From: Sulfuriflexus mobilis
Lineage (GTDB): Bacteria; Pseudomonadota; Gammaproteobacteria; AKS1
Reading direction: 5' to 3'
Length of the DNA stretch: 64,000 bases
Assembly: GCF_003967195.1 (NCBI RefSeq)
Contig: NZ_AP018725.1
Location: 248,001 to 312,000, forward strand
Under the pieces are notes generated by a model that searched no databases, was not told the DNA's origin, and saw only the letters and a program-made list of their open reading frames with translations. The translations under genes and the position numbers were made by a program. Shown here piece by piece: positions 2,165-53,359 of the stretch. Within the stretch, counting starts at the first letter, position 1, and every line of letters starts with the position of its first letter.

Positions 2165-2199
2165 GGGCTTCTCTCCTTAGTAAGCGTTTTTTTTATCGA

Positions 2200-2264
2200 G
2201 TGACTTTCAAAGCACAAGTCACTATCTGGGAATCTAGCCTAGTAACTTTTAAAATGCAAGTGAT
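2200..2264. promoter_or_regulatory. Tandem dyad operator between gst and hxlR
   Basis: Two similar 23-base palindromic units are repeated 42 bases apart. The first has arms GTGACT (2200-2205) and AGTCAC (2217-2222); the second has GTAACT (2242-2247) and AGTGAT (2259-2264), with a similar A/C-rich core. Spacing of four helical turns would put both on one face of the DNA. HxlR-type regulators are known to bind such AGTnAC dyads near their own genes; binding here is inference. Confidence 0.6.
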
Positions 2265-2286
2265 GATTTGTGCTATGGTTGAGGGC

Positions 2287-2670
2287 ATGAAAAAGCCCCA
2301 ACAAAGCGTGCCCGGACAAGACTGCCTGCGCTCCCTGTGCCCGCTATCCAGCGTGCTGGATATCCTGGGCGACAAGTGGACTCTCCTGGTGGTGCGGGAC
2401 ATGCTGTTCCTGCGCAAACGCCTGTATAAGGAGCTGGCGGACTCGGCGGAAAACATACCGACCAATATCCTTGCCGACCGGCTCAAGCGCCTGGAGGCGG
2501 CGGCGATCATCGAAAAACACCCGTACCAGGACAGGCCGGTGCGTTATGCCTACACGTTGACGGAGAAGGGTGAGGCCCTGCGGCCGCTACTGATTGAGCT
2601 GGCAAAATGGGGTAACGCGTATATCCCCGGCACCATCGTCCCGCCGGAAGGTTTCATGGAGGGGAAGTAG
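2287..2670 (+). CDS. HxlR-family winged-helix transcriptional regulator
   Basis: I place the start at ATG 2287 (MKKPQQS), giving 127 residues, the family's usual length; the longer open frame from 2200 would run through the operator. The conserved HxlR opening CPLSSVLDILGDKWTLLVVRDM is present (split here: Cys then WTLLVVRD), followed by the recognition region NIPTNILADRLKRLE and the wing YQDRPVRYAYTLTEKG. Members sense electrophiles or oxidants, often through the conserved N-terminal Cys, and regulate a neighbouring detoxification gene, here the divergent GST. Convergent with the LpxR-like gene 16 bases downstream. Confidence 0.92.
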   Translation: MKKPQQSVPGQDCLRSLCPLSSVLDILGDKWTLLVVRDMLFLRKRLYKELADSAENIPTNILADRLKRLEAAAIIEKHPYQDRPVRYAYTLTEKGEALRPLLIELAKWGNAYIPGTIVPPEGFMEGK

Positions 2671-2685
2671 CCGTGCTGGCGGGGT

Positions 2686-3720
2686 TTAATAGCGCAGCAT
2701 GAAAGAGACGTTGCCCCAGAGATGGTTGCGGTCTGCGTTGCCCACATTGAGCTCACTGGTCTTACCATTGATTGAGAAGGTCACCTGCACCGGTTTGTAA
2801 CTCAGGGTCAGGCCCACGCCGGCGTCATGCACCACATGGCGAAGGTCACTATTGTTGAAGGTAACATCACTGTCGCGAAACTGGCCCTGCAATAATGCAT
2901 CATAGGCAACGGCGCGTGCACGGTAGGCGGCCCACAGGTACCACTCATCGCCACTCAGTGAGGGCAGGAAGTTGCCGCGGTTGATCGGGTCGTAGGGCAG
3001 GGTCCAGACGGGGCTGCTGATATGACCACCACGCAGAGACAGGCCAATGCTGGCATTGGTCTGATAGCCGAGGCTGGCACTACCTGTACCGGTGAGGTCC
3101 CAGTGGCCTGGTGCCCCGGTGAGTCGTTCGGCATAGGCAAGCCGAAGCCCTAGCGTTGCCTCACCACCGTTTGAGATCTGGTGGCTCCAGCCCTTGGGGT
3201 CAACCGGTTGGGTGTCGTTGGCGAGATTACGCCAGGCCCGGTGCAGTCCCTGTTGTACCTCGCGGGCGATGCCGGTGCCGAGTACGCCAATACGCATGTC
3301 GATCCCAAGGGCACTGTCCTCGTCGGCATAGACACGCTTGTTACTTAAATAGATCAACGAGGCATAAGGGCGATCATCCGGCAGGGGGGTACTGGCGGAG
3401 AGGTTATCGGGGGTATAGTTGACGCTTCCGAGCATAAAACTGCGTTCGGTGAAGGCCCCCTCGGCGTGTAGACCGAGCTGCTGTCCCGTCCACCTTACGA
3501 GTCGATCCATCGGGTAGAGGCCTTCCCCCTGCCAGAAGAATTCAACGGCGATGCCGGTGGTGTAATCGCGGTCCTGATTGAGGCCGAGGGTGAACAGGTC
3601 CTGGTCAAAATAAAAGGCCACGCCGCGGTCGTGAACCGGTTGTGCCATGCCTGTTGTGTGCGTGAGCAGCAATCCCGCACTGAAGAGGCAGGTTAACAGG
3701 TGACGAAAAAACAAGTTCAT
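2686..3720 (-). CDS. LpxR-like outer-membrane protein (DUF2219)
   Basis: A 344-residue protein with a signal peptide (cleavage expected near GMAQ-PV) and a predicted beta-barrel of alternating segments ending in the aromatic residue pattern SFMLRY typical of outer-membrane proteins. Family motifs seen: FDQDLF with DRDYTTGI near the N-terminus, DDRPYASLIYL in the middle, and WSHQISNGGE. LpxR enzymes remove the 3' acyloxyacyl group of lipid A in the outer leaflet. The catalytic Asn-Asp pair of the characterised enzyme seems to be Gln-Asp here, so deacylase activity is uncertain. Monocistronic; roughly 250 bases without a recognised gene follow on its 5' side. Confidence 0.78.
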   Translation of the reverse strand: MNLFFRHLLTCLFSAGLLLTHTTGMAQPVHDRGVAFYFDQDLFTLGLNQDRDYTTGIAVEFFWQGEGLYPMDRLVRWTGQQLGLHAEGAFTERSFMLGSVNYTPDNLSASTPLPDDRPYASLIYLSNKRVYADEDSALGIDMRIGVLGTGIAREVQQGLHRAWRNLANDTQPVDPKGWSHQISNGGEATLGLRLAYAERLTGAPGHWDLTGTGSASLGYQTNASIGLSLRGGHISSPVWTLPYDPINRGNFLPSLSGDEWYLWAAYRARAVAYDALLQGQFRDSDVTFNNSDLRHVVHDAGVGLTLSYKPVQVTFSINGKTSELNVGNADRNHLWGNVSFMLRY

Positions 3721-3972: not shown

Positions 3973-4362
3973 ATGAAGAATACGGTATGGAAGGAACGGG
4001 TAACCGCATTAAAGAAGAATACCTATGCGTTGTATCTTGCCTCGCAAGATACCCGGGTGCCGATTCTGGCAAAAGTGCTTATTGGCCTCGTGGTCGCTTA
4101 TGCCCTGAGTCCTATTGACTTAATACCGGATTTTATTCCGGTGATAGGTTACCTGGATGATTTGATTTTATTGCCACTGGGCATTCTTTTGGCTATTCGG
4201 TTTATTCCCCGAGAGGTGTGGCGGGAATGCCAGGCCGTGGCAGCGGCGAAAATATGTGATATGCCGCACAGTCGCAGGGCCGCTGTTATTATTATCATTA
4301 TCTGGGTCTTGGCAATTAGTGGTTTCATATTCTGGCTGTGGGGCGTTATTCAACGGGAGTAA
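3973..4362 (+). CDS. DUF1232 (YkvA-like) membrane protein
   Basis: A 129-residue protein with the DUF1232 core ILAKVLIGLVVAYALSP followed by IDLIPDFIPVIGYLDD, the signature of the family, and an additional C-terminal transmembrane helix (about 100-122) before a short RE tail. The function of the family is not known; members are small inner-membrane proteins often linked to envelope stress. The gene is followed after seven bases by a secreted hypothetical protein, so the two are probably cotranscribed. The segment upstream (3852-3972) is open in the +3 direction with a Cys-x2-Cys stretch but I see no support for a gene there. Confidence 0.85.
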   Translation: MKNTVWKERVTALKKNTYALYLASQDTRVPILAKVLIGLVVAYALSPIDLIPDFIPVIGYLDDLILLPLGILLAIRFIPREVWRECQAVAAAKICDMPHSRRAAVIIIIIWVLAISGFIFWLWGVIQRE

Positions 4363-4369
4363 GGTACGA

Positions 4370-4882
4370 ATGAATAAAATATTGGGTCTTATCGTATTGT
4401 TAATGGCTTCGCTTGTGCAGGCCGCACCGCTACAGGATGTGCAATTTGACGATATCGCGTTTAAACATGCCTGGGAAAATAAAGAGAGCATTATTACGAA
4501 CGAATATGTTGAAGAAGGCCAGACACTGGATAACTGGCAGCACCTGCTTGCCTACCGTCAGTATCCTGGTCATGACGAGCCCGCTGAGGTCATCAGGCAA
4601 TATTTGACCCAGATTAAACCAACACAAAAACCCGCAGTCTATAAACGCGATGAAAGTAGCAAGGATATCATACTGGTATTTCTTGTTGAGGCAGATGATA
4701 AAAGCCATCTGGAATTTAATATCCATCGGTTTGTAGCGGAAGACGGCATCGTGCGTTCTTATCAGTTTGCGGCACGAAATTTCAAACGCAAACTATCGGC
4801 GCTTGGGGATGAGATTTCAGAAAAAAAATCAAAATGGATAGGCCTCGTAGGAAGGCTCAGGGCAGCGGATTTTACTCATTAA
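4370..4882 (+). CDS. Secreted hypothetical protein
   Basis: I do not recognise this 170-residue protein. ATG 4370 gives a clear signal peptide (MNKILGLIVLLMASLVQA, cleavage before AP), which decides the start over the longer open frame from 4256. The mature part is charged, with a short Trp-rich segment (DNWQHLLAYRQYPG) and a beta-rich middle, and no cysteines. A periplasmic location is expected. It starts seven bases after the DUF1232 gene. Confidence 0.72.
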   Translation: MNKILGLIVLLMASLVQAAPLQDVQFDDIAFKHAWENKESIITNEYVEEGQTLDNWQHLLAYRQYPGHDEPAEVIRQYLTQIKPTQKPAVYKRDESSKDIILVFLVEADDKSHLEFNIHRFVAEDGIVRSYQFAARNFKRKLSALGDEISEKKSKWIGLVGRLRAADFTH

Positions 4883-5026
4883 GTCCAGGCCGTCACCCCG
4901 TTCTGGTTTTACCTGTTATAAAGGCAGAGGAAGGTATAAGTTCATAGCGCCTATCTGGTAAAATAGCGCCATATTCCTTATCCCCGGATTTTCACCGCTC
5001 CGGGCGAACCTGTATCGAGGCAGAGT

Positions 5027-5236
5027 ATGAGCGTAAAAGATAGTAACGGCACGGAACTCAACGACGGTGATGCCGTGCAGGTGATCAAGGACCTGAAGGT
5101 CAAGGGTTCGTCAACGACCCTGAAGCGGGGCACGGTGATCAAGAATATCCGCCTGACCTCAACGGATGATGAGGTTGAGTGTCGCATGGGCAAAAGCACC
5201 ATTGTGCTGAAAACCTGTTTTATGAAAAAGGCCTGA
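5027..5236 (+). CDS. PhnA-domain protein lacking the zinc ribbon (YjdM-like)
   Basis: The 69 residues match the C-terminal domain of the YjdM/PhnA family: DSNGTELNDGDAVQVIKDLKVKG then KRGTVIKNIRLTSTDDEVEC. Full-length members are about 110 residues and begin with a Cys4 zinc ribbon, which is absent here; the start ATG 5027 is well placed (upstream GGCAGAG) and the frame has no cysteines further upstream. PhnA was named from the phosphonate operon but has no proven role in phosphonate breakdown. It is a stand-alone SH3-like domain whose role is not known. Confidence 0.82.
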   Translation: MSVKDSNGTELNDGDAVQVIKDLKVKGSSTTLKRGTVIKNIRLTSTDDEVECRMGKSTIVLKTCFMKKA

Positions 5237-5628: not shown

Positions 5629-6189
5629 ATGGCCAGACCGAGTAACACCCTGCGTATCATTGGCGGTGAACTACGTGGCCGCAAGTTAAGCTTTCCCGAT
5701 GCGAAGGGCCTGCGGCCGACACCGGACCGCGTGCGTGAGACCCTGTTCAACTGGCTGCAGGCGCAGGTCTATGGCGCGCGTTGCCTGGACCTGTTTGCCG
5801 GCAGCGGCGCGTTGGGGCTGGAGGCCTTGTCGCGCGGAGCGGCCGAGGTCGTGTTTGTCGAGCGCGACGGGCGCGTGTTGCAAAAGCTGCGCGAGAACTT
5901 GCTGCTGCTTGGGCAGGAGAATGGGCGTTGTATACAGGCCAGTGCCGAACAGTTTCTGCGTGGCGCGGCCGAGCCGTTTGATATCGTTTTTCTCGACCCG
6001 CCGTTTCAGACAGATGAGCTCGCCGGATTGTGCGCGAGCCTCGAGGCCGGTGGCTGGTTACGCGAGGGTTTTCGTCTCTATATGGAACGGCCACAACGCC
6101 TGGCCATGCCCCCGTTACCCGCGGGCTGGCAGGTGCTGCGCGAGACCCGGGCCGGCGAATCACGGGCCTGCCTGATCGGCCGTGGCTGA
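5629..6189 (+). CDS. rsmD: 16S rRNA (guanine966-N2)-methyltransferase
   Basis: 186 residues, the normal RsmD length. It opens with RIIGGELRGRKL and RPTPDRVRETLFNWL, has the SAM-binding loop DLFAGSGALGLEALSRGA (about 54-71) and the catalytic DPPF (123-126). RsmD methylates N2 of G966 in 16S rRNA of the small subunit. It follows a small hypothetical gene with a one-base gap and precedes coaD by 31 bases, a common gammaproteobacterial arrangement (rsmD-coaD-ferredoxin). Confidence 0.96.
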   Translation: MARPSNTLRIIGGELRGRKLSFPDAKGLRPTPDRVRETLFNWLQAQVYGARCLDLFAGSGALGLEALSRGAAEVVFVERDGRVLQKLRENLLLLGQENGRCIQASAEQFLRGAAEPFDIVFLDPPFQTDELAGLCASLEAGGWLREGFRLYMERPQRLAMPPLPAGWQVLRETRAGESRACLIGRG

Positions 6190-7089: not shown

Positions 7090-8757
7090 ATGCGTATTTT
7101 CTCTCTTAGCCTGTTCCTTTTTATTGCGCTCAGCAACCAGCCGCTGTGGGCAGAGGTTCAGCATGCCGCCGGTATCGCCACGGCCCACCCGGCGGCGACG
7201 CAGGCGGGGCACGAGACCCTCGTTGCCGGCGGCAATGCCTTTGATGCCGCGGTCACGGTGAGTGCCGTGCTGGCTGTGGTCGAACCCTACAGTTCGGGCA
7301 TCGGCGGCGGTGGTTTCTGGTTGTTGCACCGGGCGCGGGATGGTTTCCAGGTCATGATCGATGGCCGCGAAACGGCACCGGGCCGTGCGCACCGCGATCT
7401 CTATTTAGATGCACAGGGCCAGGTCCGGCCCGGGGCCTCGGTCGACGGGCCACTGGCGGCGGCTATCCCCGGCGTGCCAGCCGCGCTGGCGCTGTTGGCA
7501 CGTGATTACGGGCGCCTGCCCCTGGACCAGTCACTGGCCGCGGCGATCCGCATCGCCCGTGAGGGCTTTGCGGTTGAGGCCTACTACCAACGCATGGCCG
7601 GTTTTCGCCTCCAGGCCCTGCGTGCCTCGCCCGAGGCGGCGCGCATCTTCCTGCTGAACAACGAGGTGCCGCCGCTAGGGCATGTTATTAAACAACCCGA
7701 ACTTGCCGCTACGCTCGCCTTGCTGGCGGCGCAGGGTGCGCCGGGTTTTTATACCGGCCGTTATGCGCAGCAGCTGGTGACCGGTGTGCGCGATGCCGGC
7801 GGTATCTGGCGACTGGAAGATCTGGCGCGTTACCAGGCCGTGTCTCGTCAGCCGTTACGCATGACCTACCGGGGTGCGACCATCACCTCGGTGGCACCGC
7901 CGTCATCGGGTGGCGTGGCGATGGCGACGATCTTTAACCAGCTGAGCCTCAAAGAGGCCGCTGTACACAGTGAGGCCGATCAGGTTCATGTGCTGGCAGA
8001 GGCCATGCGCCGCGCCTATCGCGATCGTGCCGAGTACCTTGGTGATGCCGATATCATCAGTGTGCCGGTTTCGCGTTTGGTGGGCATGGTCCATGCGAAA
8101 CAGATTAGTGCCAATCTTGATATGGATACGGCGACACCGAGCAGTGAGTTACCTGGGGTGGTGGTCGATGCGGGTAAGGGCACCGACACCACGCACTTTT
8201 CTATTCTTGATAGTGAAGGCAATCGTGTAGCCGCCACCCTGAGTGTCAACTATCCGTTTGGCAGTGGTTTTGTTGTACCGGGTACGGGGGTATTGCTCAA
8301 TGATGAAATGGATGATTTTTCGGCCAAGCCGGGTGTACCGAATGTGTATGGTCTGGTGGGCGCCGAGGCGAATGCCATTGCACCTTATAAGCGACCGCTC
8401 TCGAGCATGTCTCCGACCTTTGTCGAAGATACACGCGGTCTGGCGATTATCGGCACACCGGGTGGCAGTCGTATCATCACCATGGTCCTGCATGGCATCA
8501 TGGCCTATATAAACGGTGGCGACGCCGAGGCCATTGTCAGTAAGCGCCGTTATCACCACCAGTACCTGCCGGATCATATTCAGTACGAACGCGGTGCCTT
8601 TGATGAGGCCCTGGCCAGTGAGCTGCAATTGCGCGGGCATGCGTTAAGTGAGCGTGATGACTTTGGTAACATGCAGGTCGTGACCTGGCAGCGCGCGGGC
8701 AATCAGGTGAGTGCGGCAAGTGATCCGCGTGGCATCGGTAGTGCGCAGGTAAGATAA
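7090..8757 (+). CDS. ggt: Gamma-glutamyltransferase
   Basis: ATG 7090 gives 555 residues with a signal peptide (MRIFSLSLFLFIALSNQPLWA-EV); an upstream open stretch from 7042 is excluded because it spans the terminator. The large-subunit part has GGNAFDAAVTVSAVLAVVEPYSSGIGGGGF and the glutamate-binding Arg in DGRETAP. The autocleavage site is GTDTTHFS, where the second Thr of TTH becomes the N-terminal nucleophile of the small subunit, followed by LNDEMDDFS and the GGSRI loop. The periplasmic enzyme hydrolyses or transfers the gamma-glutamyl group of glutathione. Single gene after a terminator; glutathione synthase is at 60 kb. Confidence 0.95.
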   Translation: MRIFSLSLFLFIALSNQPLWAEVQHAAGIATAHPAATQAGHETLVAGGNAFDAAVTVSAVLAVVEPYSSGIGGGGFWLLHRARDGFQVMIDGRETAPGRAHRDLYLDAQGQVRPGASVDGPLAAAIPGVPAALALLARDYGRLPLDQSLAAAIRIAREGFAVEAYYQRMAGFRLQALRASPEAARIFLLNNEVPPLGHVIKQPELAATLALLAAQGAPGFYTGRYAQQLVTGVRDAGGIWRLEDLARYQAVSRQPLRMTYRGATITSVAPPSSGGVAMATIFNQLSLKEAAVHSEADQVHVLAEAMRRAYRDRAEYLGDADIISVPVSRLVGMVHAKQISANLDMDTATPSSELPGVVVDAGKGTDTTHFSILDSEGNRVAATLSVNYPFGSGFVVPGTGVLLNDEMDDFSAKPGVPNVYGLVGAEANAIAPYKRPLSSMSPTFVEDTRGLAIIGTPGGSRIITMVLHGIMAYINGGDAEAIVSKRRYHHQYLPDHIQYERGAFDEALASELQLRGHALSERDDFGNMQVVTWQRAGNQVSAASDPRGIGSAQVR

Positions 8758-12797: not shown

Positions 12798-14168
12798 TCA
12801 GGCCTGGCGTCGCCGCCACCAGATCCACAGGCCGGCGGCCAGCAGACCGAGGGGCAGGACAAACAGGAAGCCGATGCCGATCAGCCCGGCGGCGAAAGGA
12901 GACAGTTCCAGTTTCAGATCGCCAGCGGTCTTGGCCGGAATATCTATGAAGTTTTCATCGCCGACGAGCCAGTTGACAAGGTTCAGGCCAAGGTCGAGGT
13001 TGCCGGCATTGCCGAGATAGGCATTGGAGACAAAGTCACCATCACCGATAACAATGGCGCGTTGTTCACTACCACTGTTATCGGCATCAGCGCCGAGATT
13101 ACGGGTCAGGATCAGGCCGATATTTAATGGCCCGGGGATATCCTCACCGGCATTGAGTTCGAGTTCGCCCTTCAGTTCAGAGGTTTCTGACCAGCTGTTG
13201 GCGGCCGAGGTCAAAAAGGGATCGGCCTGCCAGTCACTGCCCTCGACAAGCTCGATGCCAGTGGCCTGCGGAAACAGGGTGATGCTGTCAAAGTTTGCGG
13301 TTATGGCCTGGCTGCCGTATTCCGTAATGATCGTAAAGCGCGGGTCCTGGATGCCGAGCGATAGTGAGGTTGGGTCGACAATGATGCCGGGCTGAAATTC
13401 GATACCGAGTTGTTCGGCGAGGCCACCCAGACCATGTAACTCACCGGGGTCGGCCAGCCATAGCAGGTTACCACCCTTGGCCAGGTAGTTGCTGATAATG
13501 GAAAACTCGCCGGGCAACAGATTGACCTGCGGGCTGGCGATGACCAGTATCGAGGTGTTGTCGGGCAGTCGCGGGTTGTTGGCGAGGTTAATGCCCTGGA
13601 TGTTGAGACCTTTGTTTTGCAACTGTGTGGCCCAGTCGCCGAGGTCGTGGTTGGCGCGGCCGCGTGGGTTACGTTCGCCATGCCCCTCGAGGAAGACGAT
13701 ATAACGTTCGCTGCTGCGGGCGACACGTTGCAGGGCATTGGTCAGGGATTGCTCGGTGAGGTTTTGCAGGTTTTCGCTGCGTTCACCATAACGGATGACG
13801 AGTTCGCCCTCGACGCGGATGCCGAGGTCACGGGTCATCTGCGGTTCAGTGTCCGGGTTGATGAAACGCAGGCTGATCGCCTCATTATGTTTTTGGTAAC
13901 GGCTGACAATCTCGGTAATGCGTTTCGTCAGGGTGGCCGATTGCGGGTCATTACGTACAAAGGCCGTGATCTCGATCGGGCCATCAATGGTCTTGAGTAA
14001 TTCGGTGCTCGACGCAGACAGGCTATTGCGGGCATCGGCGGTCCAGTCGGTGCTGATAGCGTAACGGTTGCTTAGCCAGGCGAGCAGGCCGACGATGCCA
14101 AGAAACAGGGCTACAAAAATAATATTTTGCAGACGCACCTGCATGCGGGATTTTTTTGTTACTTGCAT
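12798..14168 (-). CDS. GldG-like ABC exporter auxiliary protein
   Basis: 456 residues with an N-terminal transmembrane helix (about 13-33), a large extracytoplasmic domain and a C-terminal helix followed by the WIWWRRRQA tail. The extracytoplasmic domain matches the ABC-type uncharacterised transport auxiliary (GldG) family: DGPIEITAFVRND, RYQKHNEAISLRFINPD, IVFLEGHGERNP and GGNLLWLADPGE. In Bacteroidota GldG works with GldF and GldA in gliding; in proteobacteria the related operon is of unknown function. Located directly after the permease gene. Confidence 0.87.
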   Translation of the reverse strand: MQVTKKSRMQVRLQNIIFVALFLGIVGLLAWLSNRYAISTDWTADARNSLSASSTELLKTIDGPIEITAFVRNDPQSATLTKRITEIVSRYQKHNEAISLRFINPDTEPQMTRDLGIRVEGELVIRYGERSENLQNLTEQSLTNALQRVARSSERYIVFLEGHGERNPRGRANHDLGDWATQLQNKGLNIQGINLANNPRLPDNTSILVIASPQVNLLPGEFSIISNYLAKGGNLLWLADPGELHGLGGLAEQLGIEFQPGIIVDPTSLSLGIQDPRFTIITEYGSQAITANFDSITLFPQATGIELVEGSDWQADPFLTSAANSWSETSELKGELELNAGEDIPGPLNIGLILTRNLGADADNSGSEQRAIVIGDGDFVSNAYLGNAGNLDLGLNLVNWLVGDENFIDIPAKTAGDLKLELSPFAAGLIGIGFLFVLPLGLLAAGLWIWWRRRQA

Positions 14169-14180
14169 TGTAATCTGTCC

Positions 14181-14942
14181 CTAGTGCTGCAAACGGTGGG
14201 CGTCGAGTTGGCGTATGCTCATGATCAGGGCAGTGCCGATCAGTAACAGATAGTAAAGCAGGTCAACGCTATTGACGGCGCCACGGGTAAACGACTCAAA
14301 GTGCTCACGGATGGAAAGATAACTGAACAGGCCACTGACCTTATCGGTCTGTCCGGCCTTGCCCGCCCAGTCGATGATCCATAACAACAGCAACAGGCCG
14401 AAGCTGCTCATCGCGGCGATCAGCGGTTGCGCGGTCAGTGAAGACATAAACAGACCAACGGCGGCAAAACTGGCCACGAGCAGGCCAAGGCCGAGCATGG
14501 CGGCGGCGAGCAGGCCGAGGTCGAGGCTGCCACCGATGAGCAGCGACAGAGGCATAAGCAGGAACATGCCGAGCATAATGGCGAAGAAGGTCATCAGGCC
14601 AAGGTATTTGCCGAGGACGATCTCGGTCATCGACAGGGGCGCGGAGAACAACAGGCTGATGGTCTGGCTACGGCGTTCCTCGCTGATGAGACGCATGCTC
14701 AGCAGTGGTGTGACCAGCAATAGCAGAAAGGCGGCGGTGTCGAGGATCGGTACGGCGACGATACTGGTTATGCCCGGTGCGCCTTCAATGGCGGCCAGCC
14801 TGGGCTGAAGCTGAAGGAAGGATTCAATCTGGACGAGGAACAACCAGGCCATGATGAATTGCAACACGGCGAGTATTGCCCAGGCCAGTGGCGAGAGGAA
14901 CAGGCTGCGCAGTTCGCGCATGGCAATATGCAGGATCATCAT
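14181..14942 (-). CDS. ABC-2 type permease (GldF-like)
   Basis: The likely start is ATG 14942 (253 residues), overlapping the last bases of the ATPase gene in the usual translational coupling; the open frame continues further upstream but only inside the ATPase gene. Six hydrophobic helices are visible, starting with AWAILAVLQFIMAWLFLV, and the cytoplasmic LISEERRSQTISLLFSAPLS loop is the ABC-2 exporter coupling segment. It would form the membrane channel for the neighbouring ATPase. Substrate unknown. Confidence 0.92.
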   Translation of the reverse strand: MMILHIAMRELRSLFLSPLAWAILAVLQFIMAWLFLVQIESFLQLQPRLAAIEGAPGITSIVAVPILDTAAFLLLLVTPLLSMRLISEERRSQTISLLFSAPLSMTEIVLGKYLGLMTFFAIMLGMFLLMPLSLLIGGSLDLGLLAAAMLGLGLLVASFAAVGLFMSSLTAQPLIAAMSSFGLLLLLWIIDWAGKAGQTDKVSGLFSYLSIREHFESFTRGAVNSVDLLYYLLLIGTALIMSIRQLDAHRLQH

Positions 14943-50298: not shown

Positions 50299-50721
50299 TT
50301 ATATAGTATTCTTTTTTGCGTCAAGCCTGGCATCAAATTTTTCTTTATTGATAATGAATCGCTCATGCCGGCCCCTGGAGATCAGGTCGATGCCATCATG
50401 GGCCTCCACGTCAAAAACAAGTTTTCTGCCTTCGACTGCAATCAAGACAACGCTAGCCGTGACCTCAAGGCCCGGTGGTGTTGCCGCTTCGTGGCTCACA
50501 TCAATGTGCGTGCCAACGGTTTGCTCTTGTGGCCAGTCGAGATGCGGCTTAATGGCCTTGATGCAGGCCCATTCGAGGAAACCAACCAGGAAGCCGGTAG
50601 CAAAGACTTCAGGCATGGCCATGAACTCGTCTGACTCCGGATAGAGCGCCGGAACAGTTTTCGACGACGGGACAATGAATCGGTGCTCGTATCGGATACC
50701 GGGTTTCAGGGATTCTCTCAT
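50299..50721 (-). CDS. FlK-like hotdog thioesterase
   Basis: ATG 50721 with GGAGAG just upstream is favoured; an in-frame GTG lies 12 bases earlier. 140 residues, single hotdog fold: the opening KPGIRYEHRFIVPSSKTVPA is that of fluoroacetyl-CoA-thioesterase-type proteins, followed by VFATGFLVGFLEWACIKAIK and HIDVSHEAATPPGLEVTA. Likely an acyl-CoA thioesterase; substrate unknown. GC content like the core. It abuts the cassette-like run to its right. Confidence 0.82.
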   Translation of the reverse strand: MRESLKPGIRYEHRFIVPSSKTVPALYPESDEFMAMPEVFATGFLVGFLEWACIKAIKPHLDWPQEQTVGTHIDVSHEAATPPGLEVTASVVLIAVEGRKLVFDVEAHDGIDLISRGRHERFIINKEKFDARLDAKKNTI

Positions 50722-50773
50722 CGATCTCTCCACTGGCGAGAAAAATGTTCCTCAAGAAGTGCTTGTTAGCATT

Positions 50774-51277
50774 TTATGTGCGGCGCAATACTTGCTGGAC
50801 AAAAGGCCACTTTTTTTCTGTATAGGTCTCTCGGTCTTCCTTATATGAAGTTGCCAGTTTTCTTTTTAAGTTTGCATACTGCGTTGCAATTATTTTATCT
50901 GAACGCAAAATATCACGAAATTTAATACGCGCTTTCCACAAAGGGCTTTCAAAAGGTATTAAGTGGAGGTGATGTGTTCTAAAAGCATCTGATGGTTTAC
51001 AAAACCAATGCATTACATCCGTTTTATACGGCCAATATTCGTAACCATGTTCTACCAAGGTTTCAATTGCCGGTTTAGATCCTTCAAGGGACTTTACACC
51101 AAACATTACATCAATTACCGGTTTGGCAACCATATCCGGTACTGCTGTGCTGCCTACGTGTTCAATACCGCCGAAGTTCCACTCCCCTACAATGGCTATT
51201 AAATGGTTTTTTTCGATCTCGAATCTTTCAGGCCATGAAGGATCATACTTTTCTAAAATTACTGATGCTCGTTTCAT
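50774..51277 (-). CDS. GrpB/UPF0157-family protein (cassette gene)
   Basis: 167 residues: ILEKYDPSWPERFEIEKNHL, then GIEHVGSTAVPDMVAKPVID and HHLHLIPFESPLWKARIKFRD, the GrpB family (nucleotidyltransferase-like fold). The enzyme function is not known. AT-rich. Two bases after its stop the minus strand reads TGCTAACAAGC (box at 50765-50771), like the R'' start of an attC; the remainder of that site is not visible. GrpB genes are common in integron cassettes. Confidence 0.88.
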   Translation of the reverse strand: MKRASVILEKYDPSWPERFEIEKNHLIAIVGEWNFGGIEHVGSTAVPDMVAKPVIDVMFGVKSLEGSKPAIETLVEHGYEYWPYKTDVMHWFCKPSDAFRTHHLHLIPFESPLWKARIKFRDILRSDKIIATQYANLKRKLATSYKEDRETYTEKKWPFVQQVLRRT

Positions 51278-51465
51278 ATGATGCCATTTCCTTGGAATGC
51301 TACGCGCCCACGTAATGGACTTATTTGAAGAGCCAGTGGAAAACCAGCTACTCTTGATGCGTTTGTTAAGCTTAATAGTGATACTTCACGAGAGAGAAAT
51401 TGTTTCTAATATTACAAACAATTTCTCTCTCGTACCTATTTCTATTATACGTGAACGTTCCTATG
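51278..51465. other. Palindromic gap between GrpB and ABM genes with a perfect 17-bp hairpin
   Basis: In this 188-base gap CGAGAGAGAAATTGTTT (51389-51405) pairs perfectly with its complement (51416-51432) around a ten-base loop. Outside it, CACGTA at about 51310 pairs with TACGTG near 51449 and GCTA with TAGC at the ends, so the gap folds into one long imperfect hairpin. Its right edge is GTTAGCC (51465-51471), holding the ABM stop codon. It may be a long attC-like site with an inserted hairpin. Confidence 0.45.
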
Positions 51466-51747
51466 TTAGCCGGCACCATTAGTCTTGTAATGCTTTTCTA
51501 GTCTTGACGAAACCTTGCCCCACTCGGTACTGCTAACACGCTGCTGATGTAACTTGAATGCACCTTGAGAAGTAAACTCTTCGTATACATTAAATCGATT
51601 CTTATTCTCATGATCCTGAGATACTTCAAAGACTAAGCAGCCTTCTTCCCGCCGGGTTAATTGAATGTGATTCGCAAGCTCTCTCTTTACAGCAGCGAGG
51701 TCAGAATCAGCCACAAGAACATATCCTTCCAGAATAACTTTCGACAA
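51466..51747 (-). CDS. ABM-domain monooxygenase-like protein (cassette gene)
   Basis: 93 residues, one ABM (antibiotic biosynthesis monooxygenase) ferredoxin-like fold: ILEGYVLVADSDLAAVKREL, REEGCLVFEVSQDHENKNRF and the conserved NVYEEFTSQGAFKLHQQ. YgiN-type relatives are small quinol or aromatic monooxygenases acting as dimers without cofactors. AT-rich, with the stop codon inside a GGCTAAC box. The start lies 18 bases from the attC at 51766-51828, the usual place for a cassette gene. Confidence 0.87.
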   Translation of the reverse strand: MSKVILEGYVLVADSDLAAVKRELANHIQLTRREEGCLVFEVSQDHENKNRFNVYEEFTSQGAFKLHQQRVSSTEWGKVSSRLEKHYKTNGAG

Positions 51748-51765
51748 CTCTGACTCCTTTTAGAT

Positions 51766-51828
51766 GTATAACGTAAAGTTGAGGGGCGCGCTGCTTTTGG
51801 CGCGTCCCTCTCGAACCCCGTGTTAGGC
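51766..51828 (-). repeat. Well-formed attC site
   Basis: The best attC in the window. Boxes on the plus strand: GTATAAC (51766-51772) and GTTAGGC (51822-51828), the latter a perfect GTTRRRY. Inner arms GTTGAGGGG-CGCGC and GCGCG-CCCTC-GAAC (51779-51816) pair with two or three unpaired bases on one side and a short loop, the feature an integrase recognises in single-stranded DNA. The stop codon of the membrane-protein gene (51823-51825) lies in the R'' box. Confidence 0.8.
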
Positions 51829-52194
51829 GCGCGCATTTCGCGACACCCACCAAGCAATAGGTAGCAAAAGAGCCAACGCACCGCCTTGGAGTATTGGAGT
51901 CATTAACACAGCGATAGCTCCCTGTGCATCTCGGTGCCAGAAAATGACATCCGCCAAAAATAAAATGCCCCCAATGGTCACTATGACTGCGACAACATAC
52001 CAATGAAAAGATGCTGTTCCTTTACGCTGCAAGATTAATAGTGCTACGCAAATAATTACATAAGGGAGGATTAGCCAGACTGCGAAAAACACAAACGCAC
52101 CAGTACTGGTCGGTTTAAGTGCGCTCACAAAAAAGATGGTAGTACACGCAGCAACGGCCATTAGGATGAAGGTAGTATGCGCTATCCATTTCAT
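51823..52194 (-). CDS. Four-helix membrane protein (cassette gene)
   Basis: 123 residues with four hydrophobic segments (about 7-28, 34-53, 66-85, 93-114) and few charges. I do not recognise it. It is AT-rich, one gene per unit, flanked by an attC downstream and an R'-like box upstream (GCCTAAC, 52220-52226, 25 bases before the start). So it forms a complete cassette. Function unknown. Confidence 0.78.
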   Translation of the reverse strand: MKWIAHTTFILMAVAACTTIFFVSALKPTSTGAFVFFAVWLILPYVIICVALLILQRKGTASFHWYVVAVIVTIGGILFLADVIFWHRDAQGAIAVLMTPILQGGALALLLPIAWWVSRNARA

Positions 52195-52219
52195 GGTGAG
52201 TGGCTCATTCCTCCATAGC

Positions 52220-52356
52220 GCCTAACTATAATTAGAAGGCCTAAAACGCCCCTTTCAAATAGACCTTTTGGGTTCTGATAAAAACAGACTTTACTATAAT
52301 CAATGGATTAATGTTTTTTATAGGGCCTTTTTTAATAAAAATTAGTGCTGGTTAGT
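52220..52356 (-). repeat. Long attC-like site at the right end of the cassette run
   Basis: Plus strand: GCCTAAC (52220-52226) on the left and GTTAGTC (52350-52356) on the right. Inside, AAGGCCTAAAAC (about 52237-52248) pairs imperfectly with GTTTTTTATAGGGCCTT (about 52313-52329). 137 bases, like long VCR-type attC sites. A stop codon lies in the right box, ending a short remnant frame. Confidence 0.45.
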
Positions 52357-52438
52357 CGACCTCTCCCCAGAGGGCAGGATCGAGCATCGCCCAGTGGCGC
52401 GGCAAAATCAATAGCAGGGTGGGGATCTGATTGATGAT
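52352..52438 (-). pseudogene. 3' remnant of a cassette gene
   Basis: A 28-codon open stretch ends QIPTLLLILPRHWAMLD then PALWGEVD and a stop inside the attC-like box at 52350. It has an upstream in-frame stop at 52439 and no start codon. Its place before the attC-like site suggests it is the last part of a lost cassette gene. Not recognised. Confidence 0.3.
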
Positions 52439-52442
52439 TTAG

Positions 52443-52479
52443 GAATGATGATTGATGAATAAAAGATCGATCATCATTC
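52443..52479. other. Stem-loop after pyrK
   Basis: GAATGATGATTGAT (52443-52456) pairs with ATCGATCATCATTC (52466-52479), one G-T pair, loop nine bases. It lies eight bases after the pyrK stop and may end the pyr operon, although no T-run follows. Confidence 0.5.
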
Positions 52480-52486
52480 ATTAATC

Positions 52487-53359
52487 TTAAAAGACGCTTC
52501 TAGCGTCAAACACCGGCCCGTCGACACAGACGCGTTTCATGGCGGGGCCGTTTTCTGTCTCAACCTTGACTACGCAACCGGCGCAACCGCCGACCGCGCA
52601 GGCCATGAATTCTTCGAGCGAGACCTGGCAGGGCAGGTCGTATTCGGCGGCGAGTTTGGCAACGGCCTCGAGCATCGGGTGTGGGCCGCAGGAAAAGATT
52701 TCTACCTGGTTTCTTTCTTCTTCGCTCAGCGCATCGAGCCAGATGCGGGCGAGGTCGGTAACGTAACCTTCATAACAACCTGGGTAGCCTTGCAGGCTCG
52801 CCAGCCGGCAGATGACGCCCCAGTCTTCCATGAGTGGCATGCTGCCAATGACCTCGGCGGGCAGGCCGGGGATCATGTGTTGCGAGGGCTGGACCTTGAA
52901 CGGAAAGGGCACTTCCGAACCGAGGATGACAAACGGTTCGTGATCGGTGTTGCGCAGGCTGTCGGCGATGAAGACCATCGGCGGCATGCCGACGCCACCC
53001 CCGATCAACAGTGGTCGCTTGCGCTCGGCGCTTGGCGCAAACGGACGGCCGATGGGACCCATGACACTGACGGTCTCACCGACCTTGCGTTCTGCGAGCA
53101 GGCGGGTGCCGTGGCCGAGGGCCTTATACAGCAGGTCGACATAACCGTTGCTGGCATCGACGCGCATGATCGAGATCGGTCGACGCATCGGCAACAGTTC
53201 GGCACAGCGAATGTGGACAAAACTGCCCGCCTCGGCACTGGCGGCGATCTTCGGTGCCTGCAGGCGCAGGATGTATTGATCACCGGCAAAGGCATCGTGC
53301 GAGAGGATCACGGCATCTTCAGTGAAAATCGTGTTGCGGTGTGGTTCGAGGTTACTCAT
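52487..53359 (-). CDS. pyrK: Dihydroorotate dehydrogenase electron transfer subunit (PyrK-like)
   Basis: 290 residues: ferredoxin-reductase-like FAD domain (MRRPISIMR), NAD domain (LLIGGGVGMPPMVFIADSL) and a C-terminal [2Fe-2S] site CAVGGCAGCVVK with a later Cys in KRVCVDGPVF. In type 1B dihydroorotate dehydrogenases PyrK passes electrons from PyrD to NAD+. The PyrD partner is not in the window. Last gene of the long gshB-to-pyrK run, nine bases after pyrC'. Confidence 0.88.
   Translation of the reverse strand: MSNLEPHRNTIFTEDAVILSHDAFAGDQYILRLQAPKIAASAEAGSFVHIRCAELLPMRRPISIMRVDASNGYVDLLYKALGHGTRLLAERKVGETVSVMGPIGRPFAPSAERKRPLLIGGGVGMPPMVFIADSLRNTDHEPFVILGSEVPFPFKVQPSQHMIPGLPAEVIGSMPLMEDWGVICRLASLQGYPGCYEGYVTDLARIWLDALSEEERNQVEIFSCGPHPMLEAVAKLAAEYDLPCQVSLEEFMACAVGGCAGCVVKVETENGPAMKRVCVDGPVFDARSVF

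Follow-up and report, generated by a model that had tools for sequence, protein, structure and literature searches.

We analysed a 64,000-nucleotide stretch (hereafter the window) of the Sulfuriflexus mobilis genome, which is 3.11 Mb long in a single contig. Three single genes, all on the minus strand, lie here between a pyrK-type electron-transfer subunit gene (52487–53359, minus strand; PF10418) and a FlK-type thioesterase gene (50299–50733, minus strand; PF22636, E = 6e-31). From the pyrK side these are an ORF for a small protein without a Pfam match, a putative four-helix membrane protein in the earlier note (cassette 1, 51823–52194), a gene with an antibiotic-biosynthesis-monooxygenase (ABM) domain (cassette 2, 51466–51747; PF03992, E = 1.2e-11), and a gene of the GrpB family (cassette 3, 50774–51277; PF04229, E = 1.5e-44). 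The flanking pyrK has its nearest match in the named genome collection in Sulfuriflexus sp. RS_11_44, at 80% identity. The cassette stretch has a GC content of 0.42, compared with 0.56 for the whole window, and the end of each gene falls within or next to a box: GCCTAAC (51828–51822, which contains the stop codon of cassette 1), GGCTAAC (51471–51465), and TGCTAAC (50771–50765), the last two each one base off RYYYAAC. The earlier note, which had described AT-rich, same-strand single genes ending at such boxes, was thus accurate on the layout. An Rfam scan of the window at gathering thresholds gave no matches.

Boxes alone proved to be unsuitable as evidence for cassettes: across the genome the strict pattern RYYYAAC-N40-70-GTTRRRY occurs 41 times, compared with 70 in a reversed control. 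Since the pattern is no commoner than in the control, we built a covariance model of attC from 21 training sites with the window left out, namely 20 attC from other arrays of the same genome plus the class 1 aadA1 site, which matches R100-type plasmids exactly at 59 of 60 bases. Run on the window and the genome, as the earlier note had proposed, this model matches 51766–51828 on the minus strand, behind cassette 1, with 30.4 bits (E = 3e-6 in 2.3 kb; E = 0.004 genome-wide), and it gives no match at E = 1 in 20 random 20-kb stretches (400 kb) of the same genome. The site folds into paired arms with unpaired bases on one arm, as had been noted. The perfect GTTRRRY also attributed to it does not hold in the orientation of the cassettes: this plus-strand motif is the R″ box (GCCTAAC) on the minus strand, and the R′ box (GTTATAC) is one base off consensus. 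The site is a real attC, and the sole intact one of the window array, in which the model finds no further attC.

The sites after the ABM and GrpB genes are attC relics. The first (51298–51471, minus strand), putatively assigned to cassette 2 from its boxes, has no model match; besides the R″-like GGCTAAC it has a second R″-like box, GCTTAAC (51371–51365), and an R′-like remnant, GTAGC, near 51300, ahead of GrpB. The second is the R″-like TGCTAAC (50765–50771, minus strand) at the end of the array, which is followed by neither a hairpin nor an R′. Cassette 1 runs from G^TT to R″, from GTTAGGC at 52226 to GCCTAAC at 51822, and cassettes 2 and 3 show these limits only in part.

The array is headed, on its pyrK side, by a sequence with homology to other att sites (52220–52345, minus strand), with the core CTAATTATA^GTTAGGC and the crossover G^TTAGGC at 52226. 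We compared window positions 52205–52365 (minus strand) with the rest of the genome. The closest copy, at 659 kb, is also integrase-less and is 91% identical over 119 bp; a copy at 2.30 Mb, located between the intI of a complete integron (integron 2) and its cassettes, is 72% identical; a third, at 1.469 Mb, is 82% identical over 55 bp; and there is a weak match at 1.975 Mb. Toward the cassettes, the homology between the window and the 659-kb copy extends no further than the GTT crossover, the cassette boundary where an integrase cuts. On the other side, the other copies cease to match ∼120 nt upstream of the crossover; against the 659-kb copy, the identity of the window drops from 85% to 35% at −120. 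The intI genes of the two complete integrons start at −136 and −138, so the orphan unit keeps most of the intI-attI spacer and nothing of intI. The core resembles the L and R boxes of attI1 (CCCTAAA ... GTTRRRY; PMC12901181). As this sequence is homologous to an intI-adjacent att site and the homology ends at the crossover, we identify 52220–52345 as an attI heading the cassette array.

We also built an attI model from eight such sites (type A), which scores 71.1 bits at 52223–52280; since the window is in the training set this score is not independent, whereas the BLAST matches are. The window attI shows decay. The remains of its hairpin arms (52237–52274, minus strand) fold no better than shuffled sequence (z-score 0.17), whereas the hairpin is strong in the copies beside intI; z-scores are −3.9 to −5.0 for integron 1, integron 2, the orphan 659-kb copy, and a copy in the congener G003 (contig C16). 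These values come from folding each sequence by itself, as the attI copies fall in two registers one base apart, which impairs a covariation analysis. No consensus promoter (candidate Pc) passed a scan of 51200–52500.

The window attI is one of many in this genome. The model matches seven type A sites: two with intI (integron 1 at 237.9 kb, integron 2 at 2.300 Mb) and five orphans, at 300.2 (the window), 659, 1469, 1975, and 2152.5 kb. Three further array heads (type B; 179, 1406, and 2367 kb) share homology with the attI next to intI in the congener G001, and three (type C; 475, 898, and 908 kb) have a common sequence with no known intI partner. The total is 13 attI platforms of three sequence types, with intI at two and 11 orphans. 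All 13 precede attC on the same strand, 12 of them at distances of 0.15–1.05 kb; for the platform at 2152.5 kb the attC, at most 0.5 kb away, is interrupted by an IS110-like gene. Because types B and C came from comparisons between arrays, their position at the head is partly built in; genome-wide searches with both answer this, giving no match of significant E value away from array heads. The window array has the same orientation and order as the 12 other platforms. Outside this genome, the attI model has matches in each of the three congeners, among them the intI-less G002, but in none of 16 outgroup genomes. These data suggest that the gene-capture system of this genome was once spread over many places.

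Two further sites deserve mention. A match of 19.9 bits (E = 0.16) at L158 18738–18798, ∼130 bp from a palindrome, is possibly a further decayed attI. In the intI-less congener G002 (contig C110; L124 1501–2150), an attI-like site has been kept and is followed by an R″-like box and, on the opposite strand, an apparent toxin-antitoxin pair.

The position of the array beside the pyr operon, in a core region, is as first described. In other gammaproteobacteria pyrK faces pilU, the two being 47 bp apart in one genome (L014) and separated by other genes in two more (L012 and L013). At pyrK, none of these three genomes, which are the congeners G001, G002, and G003, has an attI or cassettes, indicating that the insertion is specific to the Sulfuriflexus mobilis lineage.

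The earlier note had called the run of cassettes integrase-less. For the window this is correct: there is no intI in it, adjacent to the attI or elsewhere, and tblastn with four integrases found no relics of intI at any of the 11 orphan attI sites. The genome as a whole does have intI, in two copies outside the window (TIGR02249 matches), one of them 62 kb from the window array, although both are apparently inactivated. Each carries the same 50-bp insert (96% identical) directly before the codon of the catalytic tyrosine, between the codon of TT(M/Q)(I/M) and the tyrosine codon of YTHVM (L007 10848–10897 and L010 950–999, or 236.85 and 2300.95 kb on G000 C1). The insert shifts the tyrosine out of frame, and the TIGR02249 match ends at 297 of 315 positions in both genes; the intI of the congeners, which are without the insert, reach 314 (G003) and 315 (G001). 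It is therefore probable that neither integrase of this genome is active. Among the four genomes of the genus, all of which have orphan attI, uninterrupted integrases thus occur in two congeners, and G002 has no intI at all.

The insert itself is predicted to fold into two small hairpins. The two IntI proteins are only 62% identical, yet the insert lies at the same codon boundary in both. There is no third copy in 630 kb of the same genome, and neither viral contigs (exact 20-mer search) nor plasmids contain it. We considered a translational bypass and dropped it on inspection, as no pair of take-off and landing codons matches. The insert may reflect targeted insertion or gene conversion.

Some cassette sequences occur on both kinds of platform. 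A cassette without an ORF (cassette Z) is identical at 257 of 257 positions in two places, behind the integron 1 attI and behind the orphan attI at 659 kb, each time joined at the crossover to a different attI sequence. The 659-kb array has another copy in its interior, and the cassette preceding that copy ends in ACACCTAATTATAG^TTGGAT, in which an R″ and an attI L box are fused. In addition, the first cassette behind the 898-kb orphan shares with the integron 2 array a stretch of 725 bp at 95% identity. That intI-linked and orphan platforms have cassettes in common indicates, from sequence identity, that cassettes have moved between them. Among the other arrays compared we found no copies of the window cassettes.

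The fused end near 661.28 kb (G000 C1; L107 ∼7270–7290) is of the delta-attI type, an attI end replacing the attC ahead of the cassette Z copy. A separate kind of rearrangement involves an IS3-type element with two ORFs, whose copies at L008 ∼2165–3480 and L009 ∼13030–14345 are 99.7% identical over 1313 bp; it has split one attC in each of the two complete integrons.

It is almost certain, on these sequence comparisons, that the window holds a genuine integron array with an attI at its head. The array is without intI alone and is otherwise an integron array, so the earlier assignment of the layout to integron cassettes stands, on both the held-out attC and the attI. Chance boxes next to three unrelated, horizontally acquired genes would be a highly improbable explanation. 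Two of the three attC are not recognized by our model, and GrpB and ABM are widespread families, but the E values of the attC genome-wide and of the attI match (the latter 2e-41), together with the orientation and order common to 12 other platforms, contradict a reading without integrons. Only slightly less improbable is that an integrase inserted the cassettes at a fortuitous chromosomal site (attG), independently of any attI. Insertions of this kind are on record for E. coli (Loot et al. 2024, as cited in PMC12444791 and PMC12901181), but identities of 91% and 72% to two attI over ∼120 bp go far beyond a short chance site and contradict this origin for the window locus. The type C heads could be of the attG kind.

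We think it reasonably probable that the locus is a remnant integron platform, one of the 11 orphans: an attI and, behind it, three cassettes that all point the same way, with no intI, loaded most likely in trans and later frozen. An integron integrase would have inserted the cassettes at the G^TT of the window attI, the enzyme most likely coming from one of the two intI loci or their ancestor. The array would now be immobile; its attI hairpin has decayed, and one of its three attC survives. Loading in trans at dispersed platforms fits both the lack of intI relics and the end point common to two of the copies. Each orphan could, however, once have had an intI of its own, and current function would be doubtful since both present intI genes look inactive. 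Ordinary decay, in which complete integrons were acquired at several places, received cassettes in cis, and then lost intI by deletion, is a less likely but serious alternative. Loss of intI has been proposed as an origin of CALINs (PMC8618304, citing Cury et al.), which are treated as degraded integrons by IntegronFinder 2 (PMC9024848). Within the genus intI appears prone to loss, being absent in G002 and interrupted in G000, and the homology break at −120 is near the intI starts, so that a deletion in the window would reach to ∼16 nt from the start codon. Ordinary decay is opposed by the absence of any intI fragment upstream of all 11 orphans and by the end point common to the window and 659-kb copies, which independent deletions would not predict; a single deletion, if the platform was then copied, would predict it. 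More tentatively, attI may multiply in the genus as integrase-free units of ∼120–140 bp, with one or two integrases serving many sites as a distributed integron.

The earlier note had classed the locus as a CALIN. It resembles one in having cassettes and attC in a core region with no intI nearby, but it differs in that an attI heads the array, one attC alone exceeds the model threshold (the IntegronFinder 2 default for reporting is two; PMC9024848), and the genome has intI. In the CALIN of the Shewanella prophage M16-3 (PMC9892861), similarly, an attI heads an integrase-less array and a complete integron with the same attI is present in the same genome; unlike here, there is one array, in a prophage, rather than 11 with three attI types beside core genes. 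The dispersed CALINs of Xanthomonas (PMC12444791) are likewise integrase-less arrays at several chromosomal loci, with an often inactive intI at one locus and mobilization proposed in trans; the accessible part of that report mentions no attI at the dispersed arrays. The 659-kb cassette with an attI end in place of attC resembles the delta-attI cassettes of mobile integrons (PMC12901181), although it is chromosomal and its attI sequence is that of its own genus. Chromosome-wide dispersed CALINs (PMC12444791) and a single CALIN with its own attI (PMC9892861) are thus already known. What is new is the number of orphan platforms and the presence of attI: our literature search, which covered few subscription papers, found no report of many orphan attI in one genome.

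Nearly every integrase-less array of the Sulfuriflexus mobilis genome has its own attI. Such arrays are usually recorded through attC only, attI being poorly conserved and seldom searched for. If the same is true elsewhere, many CALINs would be platforms that lie dormant or are served in trans, rather than random insertions, and there would be more places for cassette docking, and perhaps expression, than have been counted.

The degenerate attC of cassette 2 also contains a 46-bp palindrome (51388–51433) with 23-nt arms that are 96% complementary. It belongs to a family (GGGGTCAGAGCAC...TTTTCTCTAATAT... and relatives) with further copies at L008 ∼4360–4420, L108 ∼4970–5030 and ∼5950–6010, and L111 ∼2430–2490 and ∼4745–4805. 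In about five of seven copies the palindrome lies inside or right beside an attC or attI, and array regions totalling 111 kb contain its core six times, compared with once in 400 kb of random sequence. These palindromes may be a hairpin element that prefers att sites.
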